Assembly (NCBI GenBank): GCA_009781125.1
Contig: WQYS01000047.1
Location: 1-11,718 of the forward strand
Direction of reading: 5' to 3'
DNA: 11,718 nt
From: Acidobacteriaceae bacterium
Lineage (GTDB): Bacteria > Acidobacteriota > Terriglobia > Terriglobales > Acidobacteriaceae
Shown here: piece after piece, positions 2,899 through 11,718 of the stretch
Numbering within the stretch: the stretch's first letter is position 1
How the letters are laid out: each line of letters opens with the position of its first letter
The notes under the pieces: generated by a model
Seen by the model: only the letters and a program-made list of their open reading frames with translations
What the model was told of the DNA's origin: nothing
Databases searched by the model: none
Made by a program: the position numbers and the translations under genes

Positions 2899-2924
2899 TT
2901 GGGGCGGCTAGTGGGGTTCGAACC
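2899..2924. repeat. attL-like 26-bp tRNA-His 3' tag
   Basis: This stretch is identical to 11466-11491 and then diverges abruptly (G at 2925, C at 11492). It contains the complement of the CCA end (2900-2902), discriminator, acceptor strand (2904-2910), T-stem and T-loop, but no anticodon arm, D-arm or 5' acceptor strand follows. It is therefore a tag left by integration, not a second tRNA gene. Confidence 0.87.
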
Positions 2925-2987
2925 GCAGTGGGCTGTTTAGAATCTGAAACTTACAGGTTCTCCAACTACTTAGAAAGCGCAAAATTC

Positions 2988-3023
2988 CTACAATCCCAGA
3001 CCCTTAGCACAATCTAGCACAAA
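2988..3023. repeat. Candidate left integrase arm-type sites
   Basis: CTACAATC (2988-2995), CCTTAGCACAAT (3002-3013) and a further TAGCACAA (3016-3023, 11 bp after the copy starting at 3005) lie 64-99 bp inside the left att tag. CTACAATC and CCTTAGCACAAT recur in the same order and orientation near the right att site (11382-11389 and 11411-11422). Short direct repeats flanking a core site are what tyrosine recombinases use as arm-type sites. The function is inferred. Confidence 0.5.
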
Positions 3024-3172
3024 TCAGAGAACTTCACTGATCCGCATACCACACAAAAATTTATAGCGATTCCGAGGTCTATTCAAAGCTTGTTTTAGAA
3101 CTGTAGGAATCGTAATGAGTGTATGCCATGGGGATTTGTCTTTGTCCATTATCGAGTTCCTCCAGCAGCGGT

Positions 3173-3313
3173 CTACGCTTCTGCTGCATGATGTTGGTTA
3201 TGGGTATACACATCCATCGTGATAGAACCCATCGAAGCGTGTCCGGTGCGTTTATCCCTCAATTTCAGCGGTATTCGCAAGTGGTCCATCGTTGACGTGT
3301 CAAAATGGTGAGT
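3173..3313 (-). pseudogene. Tyrosine recombinase (phage integrase) C-terminal remnant
   Basis: Reading leftwards, 46 open codons end at a TAG (3175-3173) and are preceded in frame by a TAA (3316-3314). The peptide contains GHASMGSITMDVYTH, the hallmark end of tyrosine recombinases: the Gly-His of the catalytic box and, about 10 residues later, the Tyr nucleophile (codon 3208-3206) in the Y-T-H context. The conserved HxLRH box expected some 30 residues earlier is not recognisable (the sequence there reads TSTMDHLRIPLK), and no start codon or N-terminal domain is present. It is therefore a decayed fragment. It sits about 250 bp from the left att tag and points toward it, so it is the likely relic of the enzyme that inserted the island. 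The motif is seen directly; the role is inference. Confidence 0.75.
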
Positions 3314-3453
3314 TTACGGTTACGCTCCACGTTCATATCCAAGGGTTGTAAGGCAAGTCCCTGCCGGGCAGCATGTAACCTTGAAACATATGGCTATATT
3401 TTTTGATAACATTAGCCATCTCTTTCTTGAATCGGTTCCAGCAAGAGTTTTTT

Positions 3454-4944
3454 ATGGCTTCTACGAAGAGCGCCAGTCAGTCTATTTCACCCTGGGATTT
3501 AGCGGAAACCGAGCGGCTTCTCGACCACCCCGCTGTGCGCCTGTTGAGGAGCCCGAATGGAGCGTTCACGCTTACCTTTCTGCATCGCGCCTTCAAAGAA
3601 CAGCATGACATTTCCGTTTCAGAATCGCATTTAAGGGCACGTCTGGAGAATTTTCTCGAAGAATCGCGAGCGCTTCAGCCCGGCTCCTATCCGAGGACGG
3701 CGTCAGATTATCTTGCTGCCTGGTGCGGTGATGAGCAGCTTCTGCTCAAAAAGCTGTATAGCCATCAGGTCGAAGAACCTGTCTTTGAATTGACCTCTGG
3801 CGCCGAGCGCGCCATGCAGTGGATCGAAGACCTACAGGCAAAACCTTTCATCGGCGCGGAGTCCAGGCTGGAATTAATTCTGCGCAACCTGGAGGAGATT
3901 GTTCTGTTTTCGACGCCTGATGTCGAGAAGCGAATCTCCGTATTGCGGGAGCAGCAATTGGATATCCAGGCGCAGATCGATGTGATGCTGACGAGCAATA
4001 TGGCTGTCGCATACACGCCGGTTCAACTGACGGAGCGTTTTGCCAATGCGCTTGATCTGGCTCGCGGCCTTACCGGTGACTTTCGCCAGTTGGAGGAGAA
4101 CTTCAAGGAAGTAGCGCGCTCGCTCGCTGAGAGCCACGCGAAGCCGGGAGTCAAAAAGGGACGCATGGTCGGCCAGTTGCTCGACACGCACGCGGCCATT
4201 AAGGATTCGCCTCAGGGACAGAGCTTCTACGCCTTCTGGAATCTTCTCTCCTCGCCCGAGCGCCAGCAGCGGTGGCGAGAACTGACCCGGCAGGTCTATC
4301 GCATTGAGAAGATCGATTCGGCCCTGCGCTCCAACCGGCTGCTGGAACGGCTTTCGAGCCTGCTGCTTGTCGAGGGCGAGCGCGTCGTCCGCTCCAATGA
4401 GCGCATGGCCGCGACGCTGCGGCGCGCGCTGGAGTCCGCCGCGTCCGGCGAAGATCAGCGGCTCCGCGAACTTATCCACGAGATTCAGCAGGCTGCCATC
4501 ATCGTTCGGAACAATCCGCCATCGGAAGATGAATTCTTCGATTTTGCCGGGCCGCCGGTTCCGTTTGCCAACTTCAGCCGAAGCTTCTGGCAGCCGGATG
4601 CGAACGGAAGTTTGTTAGACGAATTCTCCTTCGCCTCCGGCGCGGAACTGGACCGGTCCATCGTCGATCGCTTCAAAAATCTTGCGGATTTGAATCTTAA
4701 GCGTCTTCGCGAGCATATCCGCGAGTGCCTCTCGACCCACGATTCGATTCTCTTATCCGAGATTCTGCGGCAATTTCCTGCCACGGATGGCGCGATTGAG
4801 ATCATCGGTTATCTCGTCATCGCGACGCAGGAGGATACGCATTATGTCGCCCGAAACCAGTTTGCCAGCATCTGGGTCGAGGACGCGGCCGGGAGAGCAA
4901 GCTGGCGCGTTCCAGAGGTTTTGTTTGCACGGGCAGGTGAGTAA
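3454..4944 (+). CDS. jetA: JetA, Wadjet kleisin subunit (DUF3375)
   Basis: This protein of 496 residues is the kleisin-like (MukF/MksF-type) subunit of type I Wadjet. It bridges the JetC heads and binds JetB in the loop-extruding complex. The start of the protein shows the DUF3375 pattern: LLDHPAVRLLRSPNGAFTLTFLHRAF, followed by a helical wHTH-like region (YLAAWCGDEQLLLKKLY), a long helical middle (about 130-350) and a C-terminal region ending EVLFARAGE that would hold the second winged helix. I chose ATG 3454 over an upstream TTG at 3403: the extra 17 residues are hydrophobic (ITLAISFLN), out of place on a cytoplasmic kleisin, and the family alignment begins just after 3454. Only a weak Shine-Dalgarno precedes it. 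The TAA stop abuts the jetB ATG with no gap. It is the first gene of the operon. Confidence 0.9.
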   Translation: MASTKSASQSISPWDLAETERLLDHPAVRLLRSPNGAFTLTFLHRAFKEQHDISVSESHLRARLENFLEESRALQPGSYPRTASDYLAAWCGDEQLLLKKLYSHQVEEPVFELTSGAERAMQWIEDLQAKPFIGAESRLELILRNLEEIVLFSTPDVEKRISVLREQQLDIQAQIDVMLTSNMAVAYTPVQLTERFANALDLARGLTGDFRQLEENFKEVARSLAESHAKPGVKKGRMVGQLLDTHAAIKDSPQGQSFYAFWNLLSSPERQQRWRELTRQVYRIEKIDSALRSNRLLERLSSLLLVEGERVVRSNERMAATLRRALESAASGEDQRLRELIHEIQQAAIIVRNNPPSEDEFFDFAGPPVPFANFSRSFWQPDANGSLLDEFSFASGAELDRSIVDRFKNLADLNLKRLREHIRECLSTHDSILLSEILRQFPATDGAIEIIGYLVIATQEDTHYVARNQFASIWVEDAAGRASWRVPEVLFARAGE

Positions 4945-5524
4945 ATGCAGGATAATTCCGAGTTCGGCCCCAGAACATTTGCGCTAGCACAGCTATTCGT
5001 CGGCCCGGTGTACGCCGGGGATACGCAGATATGGGAGACGATTCGCGGCGAAAGAGAGTACCTTGCCCGCTACTTCCGCCAGATTGGGCAGGAACTCGTC
5101 GTCGATGAAGCGGAGGGCTACGCCTTCATCCGGCAGATGGAGCCGGATGGCGAAGAACGAGTACCAAGAATCGGGCGGCGACAGGTGCTTGGGTATGCGG
5201 CAACCGTCCTGCTGGTTTGTCTGCGCGAAGAGCTGGCGCGCTTCGATGCAGCTCCCGGAGATTCAACCCGGCTGGTACTTACCAGACAACAGTTGCGGGA
5301 TATGGTTGCGCAGTTCATCAAGAGAATCAAACAACCAGATTCGCGATACGCGCGCGATGGACAATGCGATCCGGCGAGCCGAAGAACTGGGATTTCTGAA
5401 GACGGTTGGACCGGCGGAGTCCGACACGCTTGAAGTGATGCGCATTTTGAAGGCGCGATTTGGTCCGTCGGAACTGGAACTGGTGAGGGAACGATTGATA
5501 CGGCATGGAGAAGGACAATCTTAA
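4945..5524 (+). pseudogene. jetB: JetB, Wadjet KITE/MukE-like subunit (DUF4194), frameshifted
   Basis: JetB is the MukE-like winged-helix subunit that binds the JetA kleisin. From the ATG at 4945 the frame reads a plausible DUF4194 protein (RTFALAQLFVGPVYAGD, then the GEREYLARYFRQIGQEL region and LRDMVAQFIKR). It then runs into unrelated sequence and stops at 5433 after 162 residues. The missing C-terminal half is in the +1 frame: NNQIRDTRAMDNAIRRAEEL, GFLKTV, then LEVMRILKARFGPSELELV, ending in a TAA at 5522-5524. The switch is most likely near ATC AAA CAA C (5326-5335); one base fewer there would give a continuous protein of about 192 residues, normal for the family, overlapping jetC by 20 bp. 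The alternatives are a true mutation, a sequencing error or recoding. An ATG at 5357 could start a 55-residue C-terminal piece, but it has no clear ribosome site. Confidence 0.85.
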
Positions 5525-8500
5525 TTCGCAGGACGAACTTCGGCGATTGCCGGGTTTTCGTCTCGACCGCCTGGAGCTGCTGAACTGGGGAACCTTTCAC
5601 GGGGAGGCGCAGGTCTTTGCGCCGCGCGGGGAGTGGTCGCTTCTGGTGGGCGAAAACGGCTCGGGAAAAACGACGGCCATTGATGCTTTGCGCACGCTCC
5701 TGGTGCCTCCGCGCATTCTCTCCTCTTCTTACAACGACGCTTCGGGAGATGGCCGCAAGGCCCATGACCGTACGCGGCGCTCCTACATTCGCGGTGCCTG
5801 GGCAAGCTCCAGCACCGTCGATTCAACCGCGCAGACCATCCAGTATCTGCGCGAACCGGGAACGCTGAGCGCAATCGCGGCTGTCTTCACCAACGCGGCA
5901 CACTCCGAATCGGTGACCCTGGCCCAGGTGCTTTGGGAGAGCGATGAGCAGGTCCGCGAGATATTCGCCATCTCTCACGCCGCCAAAAGCCTGAAAGACC
6001 TGCTCGGACAGCAGACCAACACCACCGAGATCCGGCGCGCTGCCAAACGCAGCGGATGGGAGGTATTCGACAGCTTTCCAGCTTACTCCGAGCGTATGCG
6101 CAAGCTGCTCTCGATCCCCGGCGAGAAGGCGCTTGAGGTGTTCAACCAGGCAATCGGGATGAAGGAGGTTAACGATATCGATGCGTTTGTTCGCCAGTTT
6201 CTGCTGCCCTCTGCCGATACCTTCGCCTTCATTCGGGATACGGTTCAGCCTCAGTACAGAACCCTCATGGACTGCTGGACAGCCATCGATCGCGCCGTGC
6301 GCCAGTTGCAGGCTCTGCGCCCCGTATCGGAGAATGCCGCGCGGGTTGCGGTCGCCGAATCCACAATTAATGAGTGGAAAGAGCTTCAGGATGCGGTAAG
6401 ACCTTACTTCCTGACAAAGTATCTCGGATTTCTGGAGCAGCGGGTGGCAGACCTGCAGAAGGAACATACGGTCGCTCAAGCGGAACGAGACGCCACAAAA
6501 ACTGGTCTGGAGCAGCGCAGAGGTGATCGCGACGGATTGATCGCCGCCATCAGCGCGACCGGCGTGGGGGCTCGCCTTCAGACCATCGATCGCGATATTC
6601 AATATTCAGAAGGAGAGTGGCAGCGAGCACAGACGCTGCGTAGCCGCATTCAACCCTCGATTGCGCTTCTCTCGGCGGAAGCTGCTTTGGCCGATGCGGC
6701 AGCCTTCGCCGGAGCGCAGTCTGATTGGGAGTCGGTAGAGATTCGGGAAAACCAGGTTTTCGATGAGAGTGAAGAACGCCGTGCCGAGCACCATTATCGT
6801 CAACAGACTGTTGTGAAGGATATGCTCGATGTGCGCGATGAGCTTTCAAGCACCGAGCGGAACAAGGTAAACATTCCAAGAAATTTTCTGGAGGTACGCT
6901 CACGCCTATGTGAGGCTCTCAAGGTCGATACAGCCACCATGCCGTTTGTCGGCGAGTTGATGGAAGTGAAGGCCGAATATGCGGAATGGGCTGGCGCTAT
7001 AGAGCGTCTACTGCGCGGTCTTGGACTATCCCTTCTGGTGCCGGAGCGTCTCTATCGTCCCGCCGCCGAGCTTATTAACTCGACCATGCTCAACCTGCGG
7101 CTGACATTTTATCCAGTGCCAGCGCAGGTTCCCATGCTGCCTCGTCTTTCCGCTGAGCTTGTGCCGGGGCGATTGTCCTTCCGTACCGATCATGCGCTGC
7201 ACTCCTGGGTGATCTCCGAACTAACGCGGCGATTCAACTATCGCTGCTGTGAAACGATTGCGGACCTGGAGCGAGTGGAAAAAGGCTTGACGCGGCAGGG
7301 ACTTCTGCGAGACCGCTCACGCCATCTCAAGGACGACACGCATTCGATCGACGACCCAAAGAACCGGATTCTTGGATGGTCCACGGAGCGGAAGATCGCC
7401 GCTCTACGGGCGCAACTTGTGGAACTGGAGAAGCAGGCCGAAGCCGCCGCGCGTGATTCGTCCCAGGCAGCCGACGCGGCCGCCAGCGCCAGAGCGCGTG
7501 CCGCCGCTGCCAGAGAACTCCTCGGCATTACAAAATTTCTGGACATCCATCCTGCCCATTGGAGCGAGCAACTTATTCGACTGCGTGAAGAAAAGGCGCT
7601 GCTGGAAAACAGCTCCGAAGAACTTCATCTGCTTGAACAGCAGAAAAAGAAGATCGAATTGGAAATCACGGATTTTGAGCAGCAGCTTCGGAAGATGGAT
7701 GGGAGTGTGCAGATTCTTGAGAGAGATCTGGGCGACTGCGCGCAGATCTCTCAAACCAGAAGAGTCGAGCTTAATAAGTTTTCAGACTATGAGCATGAAA
7801 GAACCGACGGGGACTTTACACGATTGCTGGAGTCCCACGATCCGCTCACGATGGACAACATGGACCAGTTGATACACACGGTCTTCAACAGAATTCAGGG
7901 GAGGATAAATAACGAATCTGGAAAAGCCAACGAAGCAGTCGTAAAGATGGAGGTGGCCATGAGCGATTTTCTTAAGGAGTTCACCGAGTTTGGCCAGACG
8001 CTTCTCTCCGGGCGCGCATACGCGGATAGTTTTCTTGCCGTACAGCGAAGAATCGAAGAGGAAGACCTCCCGCAGCATAGAGAGCGCTTTGAACACTATC
8101 TCGACGAAAACCTCGTGGGCGACCTTATCATGCTGGATAGCCGGCTCCGGGAGCATGACGATGCGATTAAATCGCGAGTGGAAGAGATTAATCAGGCTCT
8201 CCGCACGATTGCGTATCACGAGAATACCTACGTTCAACTGCACTTGGCCAACCGTCCGAATCTGCAGATCGGAGAGTTCAGGCGCTCCTTGAAAGAATGC
8301 TACGAACATGGGATCGATCCTGCTCCCGAGGAGCGCCTGCGCATCTTCGAGCGCGTGCGCGCTCTATTGGAAAAATTTAAGGCAAACCCAGAAGAGACAC
8401 AGCGCGTCACCGACGTTCGCACCTGGTACAGTACCGGCATTAAGGAACTGCTGCGGCAGGATGATTCCGAGATCGACTACTCCGCAGCAACCACGGGCAG

Positions 8501-8882
8501 GTCCGGCGGCCAGAAGGCCAGGATGGCATTTACGATTCTTGCCTCGGCGCTTTCCGCGCAGTACGGTTTATCGCAGGCTGAGCCGGAGAGTTCGAACTTC
8601 CGTCTGGTCGTAATCGACGAGGCATTCTCGAAGACCGATGAAGAGAACTCCGACCGTTCGATGCAGCTTTTTGAAGGTCTTGGTTTCCAGCTTGTGATTG
8701 TCAGTCCGTTCGATGCAAAGGCCAAATTGGCGGTGCCATTCGTGCGGACGATTCATCTGGCATCGAATCCAACCAAAAACAAATCTCAGATACTTGCCAT
8801 AACTCGGCAGGAACTTGAAACCGGTGATGGTGAAGAGTCAAAGGCAGATACAACTGCGATCCTGATGGAGGCCGCCCGGTAA
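5505..8882 (+). CDS. jetC: JetC, Wadjet SMC/MukB-like ATPase
   Basis: This is the 1125-residue SMC-family motor of Wadjet, which dimerises and uses ATP to extrude DNA loops. Motifs seen: Walker A GENGSGKTT (residues 49-57), ABC signature RSGGQK (999-1004), Walker B LVVIDEAF with D1038 and E1039, and a D-loop-like SKTDEENS just after, followed by LVIVSPFD. Between the head halves lie two long heptad-rich, Glu/Lys/Arg/Gln-rich stretches (about 300-460 and 640-960), split by a compact non-coiled segment (about 478-600, with GELMEVKAEYAEWAGAIERLL) that should be the hinge. Length matches Wadjet JetC and is shorter than MukB. The ATG at 5505 lies inside the jetB C-terminal frame, with a GAGGGA run about 15 bp upstream, suggesting translational coupling. 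The stop overlaps the jetD start by one base (TAATG). All ATPase residues are intact. Confidence 0.93.
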   Translation: MEKDNLNSQDELRRLPGFRLDRLELLNWGTFHGEAQVFAPRGEWSLLVGENGSGKTTAIDALRTLLVPPRILSSSYNDASGDGRKAHDRTRRSYIRGAWASSSTVDSTAQTIQYLREPGTLSAIAAVFTNAAHSESVTLAQVLWESDEQVREIFAISHAAKSLKDLLGQQTNTTEIRRAAKRSGWEVFDSFPAYSERMRKLLSIPGEKALEVFNQAIGMKEVNDIDAFVRQFLLPSADTFAFIRDTVQPQYRTLMDCWTAIDRAVRQLQALRPVSENAARVAVAESTINEWKELQDAVRPYFLTKYLGFLEQRVADLQKEHTVAQAERDATKTGLEQRRGDRDGLIAAISATGVGARLQTIDRDIQYSEGEWQRAQTLRSRIQPSIALLSAEAALADAAAFAGAQSDWESVEIRENQVFDESEERRAEHHYRQQTVVKDMLDVRDELSSTERNKVNIPRNFLEVRSRLCEALKVDTATMPFVGELMEVKAEYAEWAGAIERLLRGLGLSLLVPERLYRPAAELINSTMLNLRLTFYPVPAQVPMLPRLSAELVPGRLSFRTDHALHSWVISELTRRFNYRCCETIADLERVEKGLTRQGLLRDRSRHLKDDTHSIDDPKNRILGWSTERKIAALRAQLVELEKQAEAAARDSSQAADAAASARARAAAARELLGITKFLDIHPAHWSEQLIRLREEKALLENSSEELHLLEQQKKKIELEITDFEQQLRKMDGSVQILERDLGDCAQISQTRRVELNKFSDYEHERTDGDFTRLLESHDPLTMDNMDQLIHTVFNRIQGRINNESGKANEAVVKMEVAMSDFLKEFTEFGQTLLSGRAYADSFLAVQRRIEEEDLPQHRERFEHYLDENLVGDLIMLDSRLREHDDAIKSRVEEINQALRTIAYHENTYVQLHLANRPNLQIGEFRRSLKECYEHGIDPAPEERLRIFERVRALLEKFKANPEETQRVTDVRTWYSTGIKELLRQDDSEIDYSAATTGRSGGQKARMAFTILASALSAQYGLSQAEPESSNFRLVVIDEAFSKTDEENSDRSMQLFEGLGFQLVIVSPFDAKAKLAVPFVRTIHLASNPTKNKSQILAITRQELETGDGEESKADTTAILMEAAR

Positions 8883-10057
8883 TGCTGAGTCCACAGCAGA
8901 TTTTGGATGCGGCACGCAGTAAGTGGCCGCGAGTGCTACGCGCCGAAGCTGCCGGAGAGAACATGTTTCCGCTGGCAATTCCCTTTGGGCGTCCTTCAAC
9001 AACAGGTGATTTTGGAACCATCCGAAAGAAACTGGCAAATTTAGCGTCGGCAGATTACAAGTGGCGAATCGACTGGAAGGAAATCGACACGCGAAGGTGG
9101 GGCAAACAGCGCTGGCCGAGAAAGGTAAGTTTCGATTCTATTGAAAACCTGGCCGTCGCGTTGCAACTTACAGAACAGTTAAGGTTGTTTCGTGAAGCTC
9201 TGGCCTTCGCACGATCCGCCTGCCCCAAACTTGAACCGTGGCTCCAAACCAGGGGGCACAAGATACCGGAGTTGTTTTCTGACTGGAAGAGTCTCATCCG
9301 TGTTTGCGCGTATTTTGACGCAAATCCTTCCCCGCATTGTTTCGCCAGACAACTTTCCATTCCAGTCGGAACCAAATTTATAGAGGAACATAAAGGAATT
9401 CTTGACGAGTTGTTGAAAGAGGTGCTTGGAGATCGAGTCAACACCAATGGCGTGAGTTTCGAAGAGCGTTTTTATCTTAGAACGGAAACGCCCCAGGTGC
9501 GATTTCGCTTTCTCGATGAAGCCCTCCAAGATCATACAGGATGGCCGGTAGTGGATTGCAGTATTTACGTGGAGGATTTTGCGAGTATGCGCTGGAATAT
9601 TCCCCGCGTTCTTATCGTCGAGAATAAGGCTGTATTCCTTAGCCTTCCTAATACTCCGGACACATTAGCCATACTTGGCAGCGGAAAAGCCGCTGTTTCG
9701 CTCTCTTCGTGCAAATGGATAGAGGACTCTGATGTCGTCTATTGGGGAGATTGTGATGAAGCTGGTCTTGGAATTCTCTCGTCGATGCGTGCTCTATTTC
9801 CAAAGATGCGAAGCATTTTCATGGATTACGAATCCTGGATGCGCTGGAAACGATTCGCTGTCGCAGGTAAGAGAGATGGAACAGCTCAGTATGCTCATCT
9901 GACGCCTGCGGAGGTGGAAACGCTTACCGCTGTGAAGGAAGGGCCATGGATGCTGGAGCAAGAGAAAATCCCGCACGAAGAAGTGGAAAAGATGATTAAG
10001 ATAATTTTCCCGATGAATCAACACGGAAGCAGTCGCCTCCACTTGAGTGTGGACTGA
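8882..10057 (+). CDS. jetD: JetD, Wadjet Toprim-like nuclease (DUF3322/DUF2220)
   Basis: This 391-residue protein is the nuclease of the Wadjet complex; in characterised systems it dimerises and cuts small circular DNA after loop extrusion. The N-terminal part (about 1-190: RSKWPRVLRAE, YKWRIDWKEIDTRRWG, RLFREAL) fits the DUF3322 arm-like domain. The C-terminal part has a Toprim-type catalytic set: VLIVENK with E247, and DVVYWGDCDEAG with D290 and D292 (the DxD pair), followed by helices such as LGILSSMRALF. The ATG overlaps the jetC stop (TAATG), and GGAGG at 8867-8871 gives a 10-base spacing. It is the last gene of the operon and ends 2 bp from the convergent ATPase gene. By eye the gene is less GC-rich than jetC, which may reflect a separate history, but I have not measured it. 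Confidence 0.92.
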   Translation: MLSPQQILDAARSKWPRVLRAEAAGENMFPLAIPFGRPSTTGDFGTIRKKLANLASADYKWRIDWKEIDTRRWGKQRWPRKVSFDSIENLAVALQLTEQLRLFREALAFARSACPKLEPWLQTRGHKIPELFSDWKSLIRVCAYFDANPSPHCFARQLSIPVGTKFIEEHKGILDELLKEVLGDRVNTNGVSFEERFYLRTETPQVRFRFLDEALQDHTGWPVVDCSIYVEDFASMRWNIPRVLIVENKAVFLSLPNTPDTLAILGSGKAAVSLSSCKWIEDSDVVYWGDCDEAGLGILSSMRALFPKMRSIFMDYESWMRWKRFAVAGKRDGTAQYAHLTPAEVETLTAVKEGPWMLEQEKIPHEEVEKMIKIIFPMNQHGSSRLHLSVD

Positions 10058-10059
10058 AT

Positions 10060-11256
10060 TTAAGGAAGTTGGCTGAGAAATGTGCGCGCAGGAACAGTGA
10101 CAGGACGCTGCGCGGTAAAACAGTTAACCTCTTCGAAGGGGAGGTTTACTATCACCTGAAATGCGTATGGAGCCTTAACCTGTGTCTGAAAGTAGGCAAG
10201 CGCGGGCGAAAGCGCCGTATCGCCGAGCTTCGCCTCGACTAGAAACCAAGGCTTACGGTCGCGTACCACTAAAAAATCCACCTCTCGTTGTTGTTTGTCG
10301 CGCACGTAACGCAGCTCAAAGTTGCCAAAACCCAGGTCGGTCCAAATATCAACCGCCTTGAGTAAGTGGCAGGCAATGAAGTTCTCGGCGCGTGCGCCAT
10401 CATCGGCTACCCCGCTCCAGTCGCGGAGAAACCATTTTGGTTCCTTGCGCAGCGCCTTGGCTACGTTGTTAAACCAAGGGCGAATCGTAAAGCCATAATG
10501 CATTCGGATCAGCAGGTCGACCCATCTCCTGATCGTGTCCACCGAAACCTGTATCTCCGCCGCCAGATTCGAATACACAAGTTGCTGAGCGGAGCGTTCA
10601 ACGAGCAACTCCATCAGGACCTCGATTATTCCCAGATCGCGAACCGCTGCTACATCGCGCAGATCTTCTCGGGAGAGCTGGGCTTGACGAAGGGTTCTCC
10701 AACGCCTGGTAAAGCGTATCTCTCGACGCAGAAACGGCTCGGGAAAGCCTCCGTGTTCCCATAGCGCATCCCAATCCGCCTCTTTTACTTTTTGTGGAGG
10801 ATGGATTTCGCTTGCCGGAAGTTCCGTACGAATACATTCACCAACACTCCAGGGATGTAGGCGATAAAGCAGGTAGCGGCCCATCAGGCTATCACCGCCT
10901 CGACGGTAGATATCCATCCGCGAGCTTCCAGTCACCAACAGATGTGCCTGATCACCGTAAGTATCGAAGAATCCTTTCAGCAGCGTCTTCCACTTCGTAT
11001 ATTTATGCAACTCATCGAGCACGGCAACGGGAGGTTGCGCACGCAGCTTTTCGAGACCAAGCGATTCGGCCAAAGCTTCTGGTCCTTGCAGAAGCTCGCG
11101 CCGATCATTGATGTTGTCCCAGTTGAAATAAGCGTTGCCAACCGATTTCGCAACCCAAGTCTTCCCCACTTGGCGTGGTCCGCTTACAAACGCCATTTGA
11201 CGGTGCTGTTCAAAGTGTTCTCGTAGAATTGCGGTATAGAGTCGTGGCCGATCCAT
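10060..11256 (-). CDS. AAA_14/DUF4143 family ATPase
   Basis: This 398-residue protein belongs to a widespread family of P-loop ATPases without an established role. Its N-terminal AAA_14-type domain has Walker A GPRQVGKT (26-33), Walker B VAVLDELHK (D81, E82) and a sensor-like TGSSR (109-113). A middle winged-helix-like region follows (SAQQLVYSNLAAEIQVSVDTIRRWVDLL). The C-terminal DUF4143 region ends in a PD-(D/E)XK-like pattern: REVDFLV with D327, then LVEAK with E341 and K343. Whether this cuts nucleic acid is unknown. It is transcribed toward jetD, with the two stops 2 bp apart, so it is not part of the jet operon. No Shine-Dalgarno precedes the ATG, and a perfect palindrome lies 11 bp upstream. 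It is island cargo; involvement in Wadjet is not supported beyond proximity. Confidence 0.85.
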   Translation of the reverse strand: MDRPRLYTAILREHFEQHRQMAFVSGPRQVGKTWVAKSVGNAYFNWDNINDRRELLQGPEALAESLGLEKLRAQPPVAVLDELHKYTKWKTLLKGFFDTYGDQAHLLVTGSSRMDIYRRGGDSLMGRYLLYRLHPWSVGECIRTELPASEIHPPQKVKEADWDALWEHGGFPEPFLRREIRFTRRWRTLRQAQLSREDLRDVAAVRDLGIIEVLMELLVERSAQQLVYSNLAAEIQVSVDTIRRWVDLLIRMHYGFTIRPWFNNVAKALRKEPKWFLRDWSGVADDGARAENFIACHLLKAVDIWTDLGFGNFELRYVRDKQQREVDFLVVRDRKPWFLVEAKLGDTALSPALAYFQTQVKAPYAFQVIVNLPFEEVNCFTAQRPVTVPARTFLSQLP

Positions 11257-11267
11257 GCTTGGACCAG

Positions 11268-11285
11268 TTTACGATATATCGTAAA
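11268..11285. promoter_or_regulatory. 18-bp perfect palindrome upstream of the DUF4143 ATPase
   Basis: TTTACGATATATCGTAAA is its own reverse complement, and its near edge is 11 bp from the ATPase start codon (11256). Its centre (TATATC on the minus strand) could serve as a -10 element, so a bound repressor would block initiation and the transcript would have a very short leader. A further half-site, TTTACG, lies at 11300-11305, exactly 32 bp (about three helical turns) from the first half. The role as an operator is inferred; no dedicated repressor gene is visible. Confidence 0.55.
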
Positions 11286-11358
11286 AAAGTTCACACCATT
11301 TTACGGTGAGCAGATGATTGGCTAAGACGAAAACCTATTGAGCGAATAGAGCGCAACG

Positions 11359-11389
11359 GATTGTAGAGCTGACAGAAGTATCTACAATC
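11359..11389. repeat. Inverted repeat GATTGTAGA/TCTACAATC near the right end
   Basis: Two perfect 9-bp arms (11359-11367 and 11381-11389) are separated by 13 bases. The CTACAATC part recurs near the left end at 2988-2995. It lies between the ATPase gene and tRNA-His and could be a recombinase-binding site or a hairpin. No T-run follows that would mark it as a terminator. Confidence 0.5.
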
Positions 11390-11410
11390 TGGCGGTCTCT
11401 ACTGAGGTCA

Positions 11411-11422
11411 CCTTAGCACAAT
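11411..11422. repeat. Candidate right integrase arm-type site
   Basis: CCTTAGCACAAT is identical to 3002-3013 near the left end and lies 43 bp inside the right att copy. It is interpreted with the left copies as arm-type sites for the lost or decayed integrase. Confidence 0.45.
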
Positions 11423-11465
11423 TACAAAACAGTACGCGCCATATTATTGATTATAAATAAGTTAC

Positions 11466-11491
11466 TTGGGGCGGCTAGTGGGGTTCGAACC
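11466..11491. repeat. attR-like 26-bp core within tRNA-His
   Basis: This is the right-hand copy of the 26-bp direct repeat at 2899-2924. It covers the 3' end of the intact tRNA-His from one base beyond the CCA to the first bases of the T-stem 5' strand, so integration left the tRNA functional. Confidence 0.85.
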
Positions 11492-11543
11492 CACGACATC
11501 CGCAGCCACAGTGCGGCGTTCTGGCCACTGAACTATAGCCGCC
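11467..11543 (-). tRNA. tRNA-His (GTG anticodon)
   Basis: The reverse complement folds into a full cloverleaf. The acceptor GCGGCTA pairs perfectly with TAGCCGC, the D-stem is GTTC/GAAC, the anticodon stem CCGCA/TGCGG encloses the loop CTGTGGC with anticodon GTG, and the T-stem GTGGG/CCCAC encloses TTCGAAC. Two further signs confirm histidine identity: the extra G at position -1 (11543) and the C discriminator (11470) that pairs with it. The CCA end is encoded (11469-11467). The 3' half is the island integration site. Confidence 0.97.
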
Positions 11544-11629: not shown

Positions 11630-11718
11630 ATGGCGACCGCGGTAAAACCCGAGATTCTTCTTCCGCGCGTCGAACGCGGCAGCCGCGTCTTCGGCGACGA
11701 GAGCCTGAACTGGCTGTC
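11630..11718 (+). CDS. Unrecognised protein, N-terminal fragment
   Basis: An open frame starts at ATG 11630 and runs off the right edge after 29 complete codons (MATAVKPEILLPRVERGSRV then FGDESLNWL). AGGAG at 11621-11625, five bases before the ATG, is a good Shine-Dalgarno sequence and supports the start. There is no signal peptide or membrane segment in the visible part. It diverges from tRNA-His across an 86-bp gap and belongs to the backbone, outside the island. I do not recognise the family. Confidence 0.6.
   Translation, partial: MATAVKPEILLPRVERGSRVFGDESLNWL

Follow-up and report, generated by a model that had tools for sequence, protein, structure and literature searches.

A probable decayed tRNA-His island with a type I Wadjet operon as its main cargo in an Acidobacteriaceae genome

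Our analysis of an 11,718-bp contig (WQYS01000047.1, assembly GCA_009781125.1; hereafter the window) from a bacterium of the Acidobacteriaceae points, with high confidence, to a decayed island that is integrated at a tRNA-His gene, is now immobile and has one Wadjet operon as its main cargo. We posit that a small integrative element, moved by a tyrosine integrase, would have recombined into the part of tRNA-His that runs from the T-loop to the 3' end, would have restored the gene from its own attachment (att) copy and would have pushed the 26-bp 3' fragment of the old gene (hereafter the tag) 8.6 kb away. The element would have brought in a type I Wadjet operon together with one AAA_14 ATPase gene and may later have lost most of its integrase, leaving it fixed in the chromosome. 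A preliminary description of the window had already proposed a tRNA-His delivery unit with essentially one Wadjet operon; we retain that proposal in qualified form, and the side and orientation of the tag, an integrase remnant that faces it and arm-like repeats at both ends now speak in its favor.

The boundaries rest on the tag, which holds the last 25 nt of tRNA-His, from the T-loop to the encoded CCA, plus one flanking base, and which sits on the 3' side of the gene in the same orientation. The repeat reads 28/29 when lengthened by 3 bp leftward, and the 26-mer is the sole exact direct repeat of at least 16 bp in the window. The preliminary description had reported an exact 26-bp repeat of the tRNA-His 3' end bracketing about 8.6 kb, and this is borne out by 26/26 identity. 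The longest repeat in 100 mononucleotide-shuffled windows was 16 bp (mean 12.7), and a chance origin of the tag is ruled out by this comparison. According to the available text of the Islander study, T-loop and T-stem junction sites form one of two classes of att sites, and an island betrays itself by a tRNA 3'-end fragment that lies 3' of the gene in the same orientation (PMC4383910). The window holds both an intact tRNA and a downstream 3' fragment in the same orientation, within the 2–200 kb used there. The tRNA-His gene itself carries one extra D-loop base relative to 19 of 19 aligned relatives, which is either a lineage difference or a sequence error.

Between the tag and the Wadjet operon lies a frame-broken piece of a tyrosine integrase, whose 3' end faces the tag. 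Its 46-residue minus-strand part (3174–3313), compared with 40 relatives, gave some match in 15 at E values up to 10, and two of these were convincing (7.3e-5 in genome G366 and 4.1e-4 in genome G068). The latter match falls in a 481-residue frame with the PF00589 domain (locus L107), and a wider alignment, which includes internal stops and a further piece read in a different frame, extends the remnant to position 3352. While the final tyrosine is retained, the arginine that precedes an HF pair in the G068 protein is a histidine in the remnant, and about the first 365 of the 481 residues have no convincing counterpart in the window. The integrase debris named in the preliminary description is thereby recognized for what it is, through 43% identity over 35 aa to this PF00589 frame; the pieces themselves gave no match to Pfam or PHROGs at E values up to 5. 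Because the island holds a remnant and no integrase open reading frame (ORF), we regard it as decayed and not as active. Each of the two homologous integrases has a tRNA-Met gene at a distance of about 34 bp; the integrase of L107 is located 3' of this gene, that of L106 5' of it. The integrase homologue in G366 is likewise fragmentary.

All four jet genes occur in the order jetA-jetB-jetC-jetD, and the best models in both Pfam and PADLOC are those of type I Wadjet. Uninterrupted frames with family matches are present for jetA, jetC, jetD and the ATPase gene; the real start of jetA is probably near 3454, and the alignment with JetA of G301, the genome with the nearest full-length relative of the operon, begins at residue 20. 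In jetB, by contrast, one frame encodes the N-terminal part (4945 to about 5322) and another the C-terminal part (about 5321 to 5524), and the operon as read therefore does not encode four intact subunits. The jetABCD set of the preliminary description thus stands for jetA, jetC and jetD, which are open and have family matches, and falls short for jetB, which is not one open frame. According to the available text of a review, Wadjet cleaves circular DNA, while linear DNA and circles above about 100 kb escape (PMC10586767); the predicted Wadjet would, while active, shield its host from plasmids.

Downstream of the operon, on the opposite strand, lies the ATPase gene, with a perfect 18-nt palindrome, TTTACGATATATCGTAAA, at 11268–11285, about 12 nt upstream of its start codon and resembling an operator. 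Just inside each end of the island lies one copy of the motif CCTTAGCACAAT (3002 and 11411), which is the source of all 10-mers common to the inner ends (2925–3170 and 11257–11465). The observed sharing of 9-, 10- and 11-mers between the ends was matched by 6, 8 and 3 of 1000 dinucleotide shuffles. The 8-mer TAGCACAA has three copies in the window (3005, 3015 and 11414), every one of them in the inner ends, and 14 copies across 990 kb of partly overlapping loci. As integrase arm sites, these repeats, including CTACAATC, are suggestive only. The features of the window are collected in Table 1.

Table 1. Features of the 11,718-bp window, in order of position.
Feature	Position	Strand	Basis and remarks
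D-lyxose isomerase gene, N-terminal part	2–127	minus	PF07385, E 1.3e-11; outside the island, runs off the contig
Glycoside hydrolase family 92 (GH92) gene	361–2661	minus	PF07971, PF17678; in the left flank, not part of the island
tRNA-His 3' fragment, displaced (tag; distal att site)	2899–2924	minus	26/26 identical to 11466–11491
Candidate integrase arm-type repeats, left	2988–3022		CTACAATC at 2988, CCTTAGCACAAT at 3002, TAGCACAA at 3015
Tyrosine integrase C-terminal remnant, frame-broken	3173–3352	minus	43% over 35 aa to the PF00589 frame of L107 (G068)
jetA (kleisin subunit)	3403–4944	+	DUF3375, 5e-93; PADLOC JetA1, 5.6e-108
jetB (KITE subunit), two frames	4945–5524	+	DUF4194 / JetB1 matches in overlapping ORFs 4945–5433 and 5063–5524
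jetC (SMC ATPase subunit)	5505–8882	+	PADLOC JetC1, 2.4e-264; PDB JetC 8dk2, 7.4e-55
jetD (Toprim nuclease subunit)	8882–10057	+	PF09983, PF11795; JetD1, 2.8e-101; PDB MksG 8b7f, JetD 8q72
AAA_14/DUF4143 ATPase gene	10060–11256	minus	PF13173, PF13635; PADLOC candidate PDC-S01, 4.2e-45
Candidate integrase arm-type repeats, right	11359–11422		CTACAATC at 11382 (inverted at 11359), CCTTAGCACAAT at 11411
att copy within intact tRNA-His	11466–11491	minus	T-loop to encoded CCA end
tRNA-His(GTG), intact	11467–11542	minus	ARAGORN; Rfam RF00005, 68.5 bits; sole tRNA in the window
DUF4112 gene start	11630–11718	+	tblastn with the relatives' gene; L059 copy PF13430; runs off the contig

To place the island in its family, we searched 398 family genomes for tRNA-His, which could be positioned in 232, and its surroundings were followed in two samples. 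The first comprised 34 loci (four plus the 30 best tRNA matches), all 34 of which have the native neighbor close by: a DUF72 gene within 125 bp in 30 (27 distances measured, three read from coordinates) and an alpha/beta-hydrolase gene at 123–344 bp in the other four (PF00561 in L059). The second began with 60 loci, of which six were set aside for want of the tag pattern and two of the remaining 54 for want of enough sequence; in the 52 that were left, DUF72 is near in 28, the hydrolase gene in 17 and neither in seven. Two genomes with two tRNA-His matches each, G391 and G402, were added. In G391 the two contigs are identical over 11.8 kb and represent one locus with the neighbor near, and in G402 the distance between tRNA-His and DUF72 is about 11 kb. 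In total, 80 of 88 informative loci, which are related to each other and do not form a random sample, are empty in the sense that the native neighbor is close, and eight lack a close neighbor. As for the empty site that the preliminary description had proposed as a check in related genomes, 80 of the 88 loci are empty, but with DUF72 or the hydrolase gene, and not GH92, as the left neighbor. The notion that the tRNA-His site is empty in all relatives is ruled out by the occupied sites of the wider sample.

Three of the eight exceptional loci hold other cargo ahead of the native neighbor. Most informative is G281 (L207), in which a decayed tag lies 6.9 kb from tRNA-His, directly before the native hydrolase gene; it matches its own tRNA end at 21 of 24 positions (200 shuffles reached at most 18), spans nearly the same part of the gene as the tag of the window and delimits cargo that includes SpoIIE-like, MFS and CMD-family proteins. 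The 10.9-kb insert of G402 (L150) holds genes for an outer-membrane receptor, GH127, a rhamnosidase and a WbsX-family protein, followed by DUF72, while G076 (L191) has 10.7 kb up to DUF72 with GDSL lipase, MacB/FtsX, SDR, TetR and DUF2306 genes; no tag was found in either of these two inserts. Pfam searches found no integrase among 20 proteins from the three loci, a set that takes in the DUF72 and hydrolase genes of the flanks, and none of the 10 inserted proteins tested with PADLOC gave a match. The other five loci (G218, G362, G371, G263 and G221) show neither native neighbor nor tag in the available stretch and may be rearranged or occupied. The contigs of G402 (L150 and L151; C103 and C27) share exactly 77 bp at their ends, which is the tRNA-His gene, and its assembly may branch there, as would be the case if a mixed sample contained the site both with and without an insert. 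A search for a 25-bp tag with at most one mismatch gave matches in 150 of the 398 genomes, the other 248 being uninformative; among those 150, two matches in one genome occur only in G391, and the pattern misses decayed tags such as that of G281. No integrase was seen within 80 kb of tRNA-His in 19 relatives among the matches listed, which is weak evidence. Because the decayed tag of G281 stands before the native hydrolase gene, tRNA-His serves this family as an att site, with occasional insertions. The tRNA-His defense hotspot of the preliminary description is thereby weakly supported as a hotspot, with other cargo at 3 of 88 loci, and is not borne out as one for defense among the 10 inserted proteins tested with PADLOC.

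At its right flank, with the DUF4112 gene, the window agrees with the relatives' right flank at tRNA-His. The left side is less orderly, and the earlier statement that the unit can be delimited exactly holds for the inner borders, which are given by the tags, and not for a left flank that is unlike the relatives'. Support for the junction of left flank and tRNA body comes from about 50 bp of weak similarity to relatives: the 60 nt left of the tag were compared with the spacers that follow tRNA-His in 32 relatives, and for 12 of these the score ranks among the highest 118 of 3332 null scores; the best similarity, in G259 and G278, has one null score as high, while an island-side control reaches the same level in 1 of 32. 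Farther left, the closest relatives of the GH92 gene are 51–57% identical and occur in Acidobacteriaceae; this gene and the D-lyxose isomerase gene lie on the same strand (1–2661) and are perhaps, we assume, a small sugar-use pair. Among 65 genomes, the best GH92 homologue is that of G172, at about 12 kb from tRNA-His, and a D-lyxose isomerase gene, which 4 of 31 genomes possess, is found in G271 at 4.6 kb from tRNA-His, both in an orientation opposite to that in the window. We take the left flank to be probably native but rearranged; it is possible that it is instead an earlier insertion, like that in G402.

Several observations weigh against the proposed integration history. Neither a DUF72 nor an alpha/beta-hydrolase gene was found in the window, so its left flank is not that of the relatives, and an empty site with both window flanks was not found among them. 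No notable similarity left of the tag is seen in 20 of 32 relatives, and a left-flank query matched 56 of 60 genus genomes, covering, among the 57 matches listed, the tag plus at most 17 bp. The GC content of the island (0.540) does not contrast with that of the left flank (0.546), and the window, which appears to be an entire metagenomic contig of 11,718 bp standing by itself, may be misassembled. As for the integrase, no intact ORF of this kind, which Islander demands, lies inside the island, where there is only the remnant; this ends about 250 bp from the tag, compared with about 34 bp between the homologues and their tRNA, and the L106 homologue is on the 5' side of its tRNA. The arm motif was selected post hoc, after inspection, and was found neither beside the two homologous integrases (L106 and L107) nor in the seven occupied or rearranged loci and L150 (G402).

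The unfamiliar left flank could be accounted for by a composite site, in which the tag at 2899 is internal, and the GH92 and D-lyxose isomerase genes form an earlier insertion whose outer end lies beyond the contig. Such a history would fit the relatives, most of which have the DUF72 or alpha/beta-hydrolase gene right after tRNA-His where the window has neither, as well as the sugar-use cluster (GH127, rhamnosidase, outer-membrane receptor) between tRNA-His and DUF72 in G402 and the oppositely oriented homologues about 12 kb (G172) and 4.6 kb (G271) from tRNA-His. We nevertheless consider it unlikely, as positions 1–2898 hold no further tag and no match to a homologous integrase, and the resemblance between the relatives' tRNA spacers and the sequence that adjoins the tag on its left favors native sequence up to the tag. 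Far less credible is the proposal that there is no integration scar at all and that a local duplication or an assembly join placed a fragment of the tRNA-His end beside GH92. That the window is a single contig with a non-syntenic left flank speaks for this, as do two one-base differences from relatives (the jetB frame and the tRNA D-loop) that hint at sequence errors. Yet the fragment shares with integrase sites a limit at the T-loop, is correctly placed and oriented and has an integrase remnant facing it, G281 has the same kind of scar at tRNA-His, and a chance match of 26 bp is negligible. A decayed island integrated at tRNA-His thus remains our preferred explanation of the window.

Within this explanation, the state of the Wadjet locus is a separate matter. 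It may be active in spite of the broken jetB frame, by virtue of a sequencing error or through ribosomal frameshifting, a prospect to which we give slightly less than even chances. The two parts of jetB are 79% and 82% identical to G301 at the amino acid level, on par with the rest of the operon, and the codon positions follow suit, with identities of 0.44 and 0.54 at third positions and 0.82–0.91 at first and second positions. With neither part less conserved than its neighboring jet genes, the frame change, judged from these comparisons, is either very recent or a sequence error, which leaves room for an active system. Conversely, JetB is truncated as read, and all four subunits are required in Bacillus subtilis according to the available text of PMC10586767. 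A conserved programmed frameshift is unlikely because jetB in G301 is one continuous frame; copies with an intact frame are thus present elsewhere.

Elsewhere in the family, the cargo of the island is sporadic. JetC matches occur in 8 of 398 genomes, with 75% identity over the full length in G301, two pieces in G075 and distant matches in the rest; at the level of the class, JetC matches were obtained in 17 of 379 genomes, without a close one over the full length. The two pieces of G075 overlap, lie in different frames and are 63% and 70% identical, on a 4.7-kb contig (L078, G075:C118), and may represent a second frame-broken Wadjet. Relatives of the ATPase are only 27–33% identical paralogues, in 6 of 35 genomes, while copies up to 85% identical are present in a large protein collection. 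The Wadjet operon of G301 has AraC, SDR, JAB-domain, TPR and GAPDH genes as neighbors and differs in location from tRNA-His, with no tRNA gene in 40 kb, of which only 6.3 kb are upstream (contig start). Five other Wadjet loci likewise have no tRNA gene nearby (9.5 kb in G390, 8.9 kb in G374 and 40 kb each in G063, G068 and G157). Since none of these six loci shows a tRNA gene, the Wadjet cassette is not tied to tRNA-His. No JetC relatives were found in viral contigs; named phages gave one distant record, and plasmids gave 16 records, all below 60% identity.

In a lineage other than the usual model bacteria, the island offers one well-bounded case of a Wadjet operon that would have been brought by an element targeting a tRNA gene. 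It raises the question of whether elements that carry a circle-cutting defense can keep a working integrase. One answer, which we consider improbable, is that an element with Wadjet alone could get into a cell but would tend to destroy its own circle on excision. The excised circle of the island would measure 8,567 bp and would be a potential Wadjet target, because this is far below the escape size of about 100 kb. If such a conflict exists, loss of the integrase would be favored, and Wadjet would be stranded at tRNA sites as a fixed defense of the host.

Compared with the islands of the Islander class as given in the available text of that study (PMC4383910), the window has the same intact tRNA at one end and 3' fragment at the other, with the same order and orientation and a length within 2–200 kb, but it lacks an integrase ORF and would be rejected by the Islander integrase filter. 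Its operon resembles the type I Wadjet of solved structures (PDB 8dk2 and 8q72) in the order jetA-B-C-D, in the four subunit families and in the matches of JetC and JetD to solved chains, and differs in the split jetB and in having only distant similarity to the solved proteins. The closest parallel at the same gene, the G281 insert, likewise pairs tRNA-His with a displaced tag that covers nearly the same bases, in its case at a distance of 6.9 kb, and no integrase was recognized among the proteins tested; there, in contrast, the cargo is SpoIIE-like, MFS and CMD-family genes rather than Wadjet, and the native neighbor stands directly behind the tag.

In Escherichia coli, according to the available text of PMC10121019, 18 of the mapped hotspots are located in tRNA loci, and mobile elements carrying Wadjet prefer hotspot #37, which is among the tRNA-gene sites of P4-like satellites. 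The window shares with that hotspot the presence of Wadjet on a mobile element with a preferred site, but what it holds is one small, decayed unit, at the tRNA-His gene of an acidobacterium, and other cargo at the relatives' tRNA-His is rare and not recognizably defensive. Tn7-like transposons are named as further carriers of Wadjet in the available text of PMC8649781. Among the papers listed for Wadjet with tRNA, integrase, genomic island, tRNA-His or Acidobacteria, no title or abstract opening describes the present arrangement. The arrangement is a further example of an already known type.

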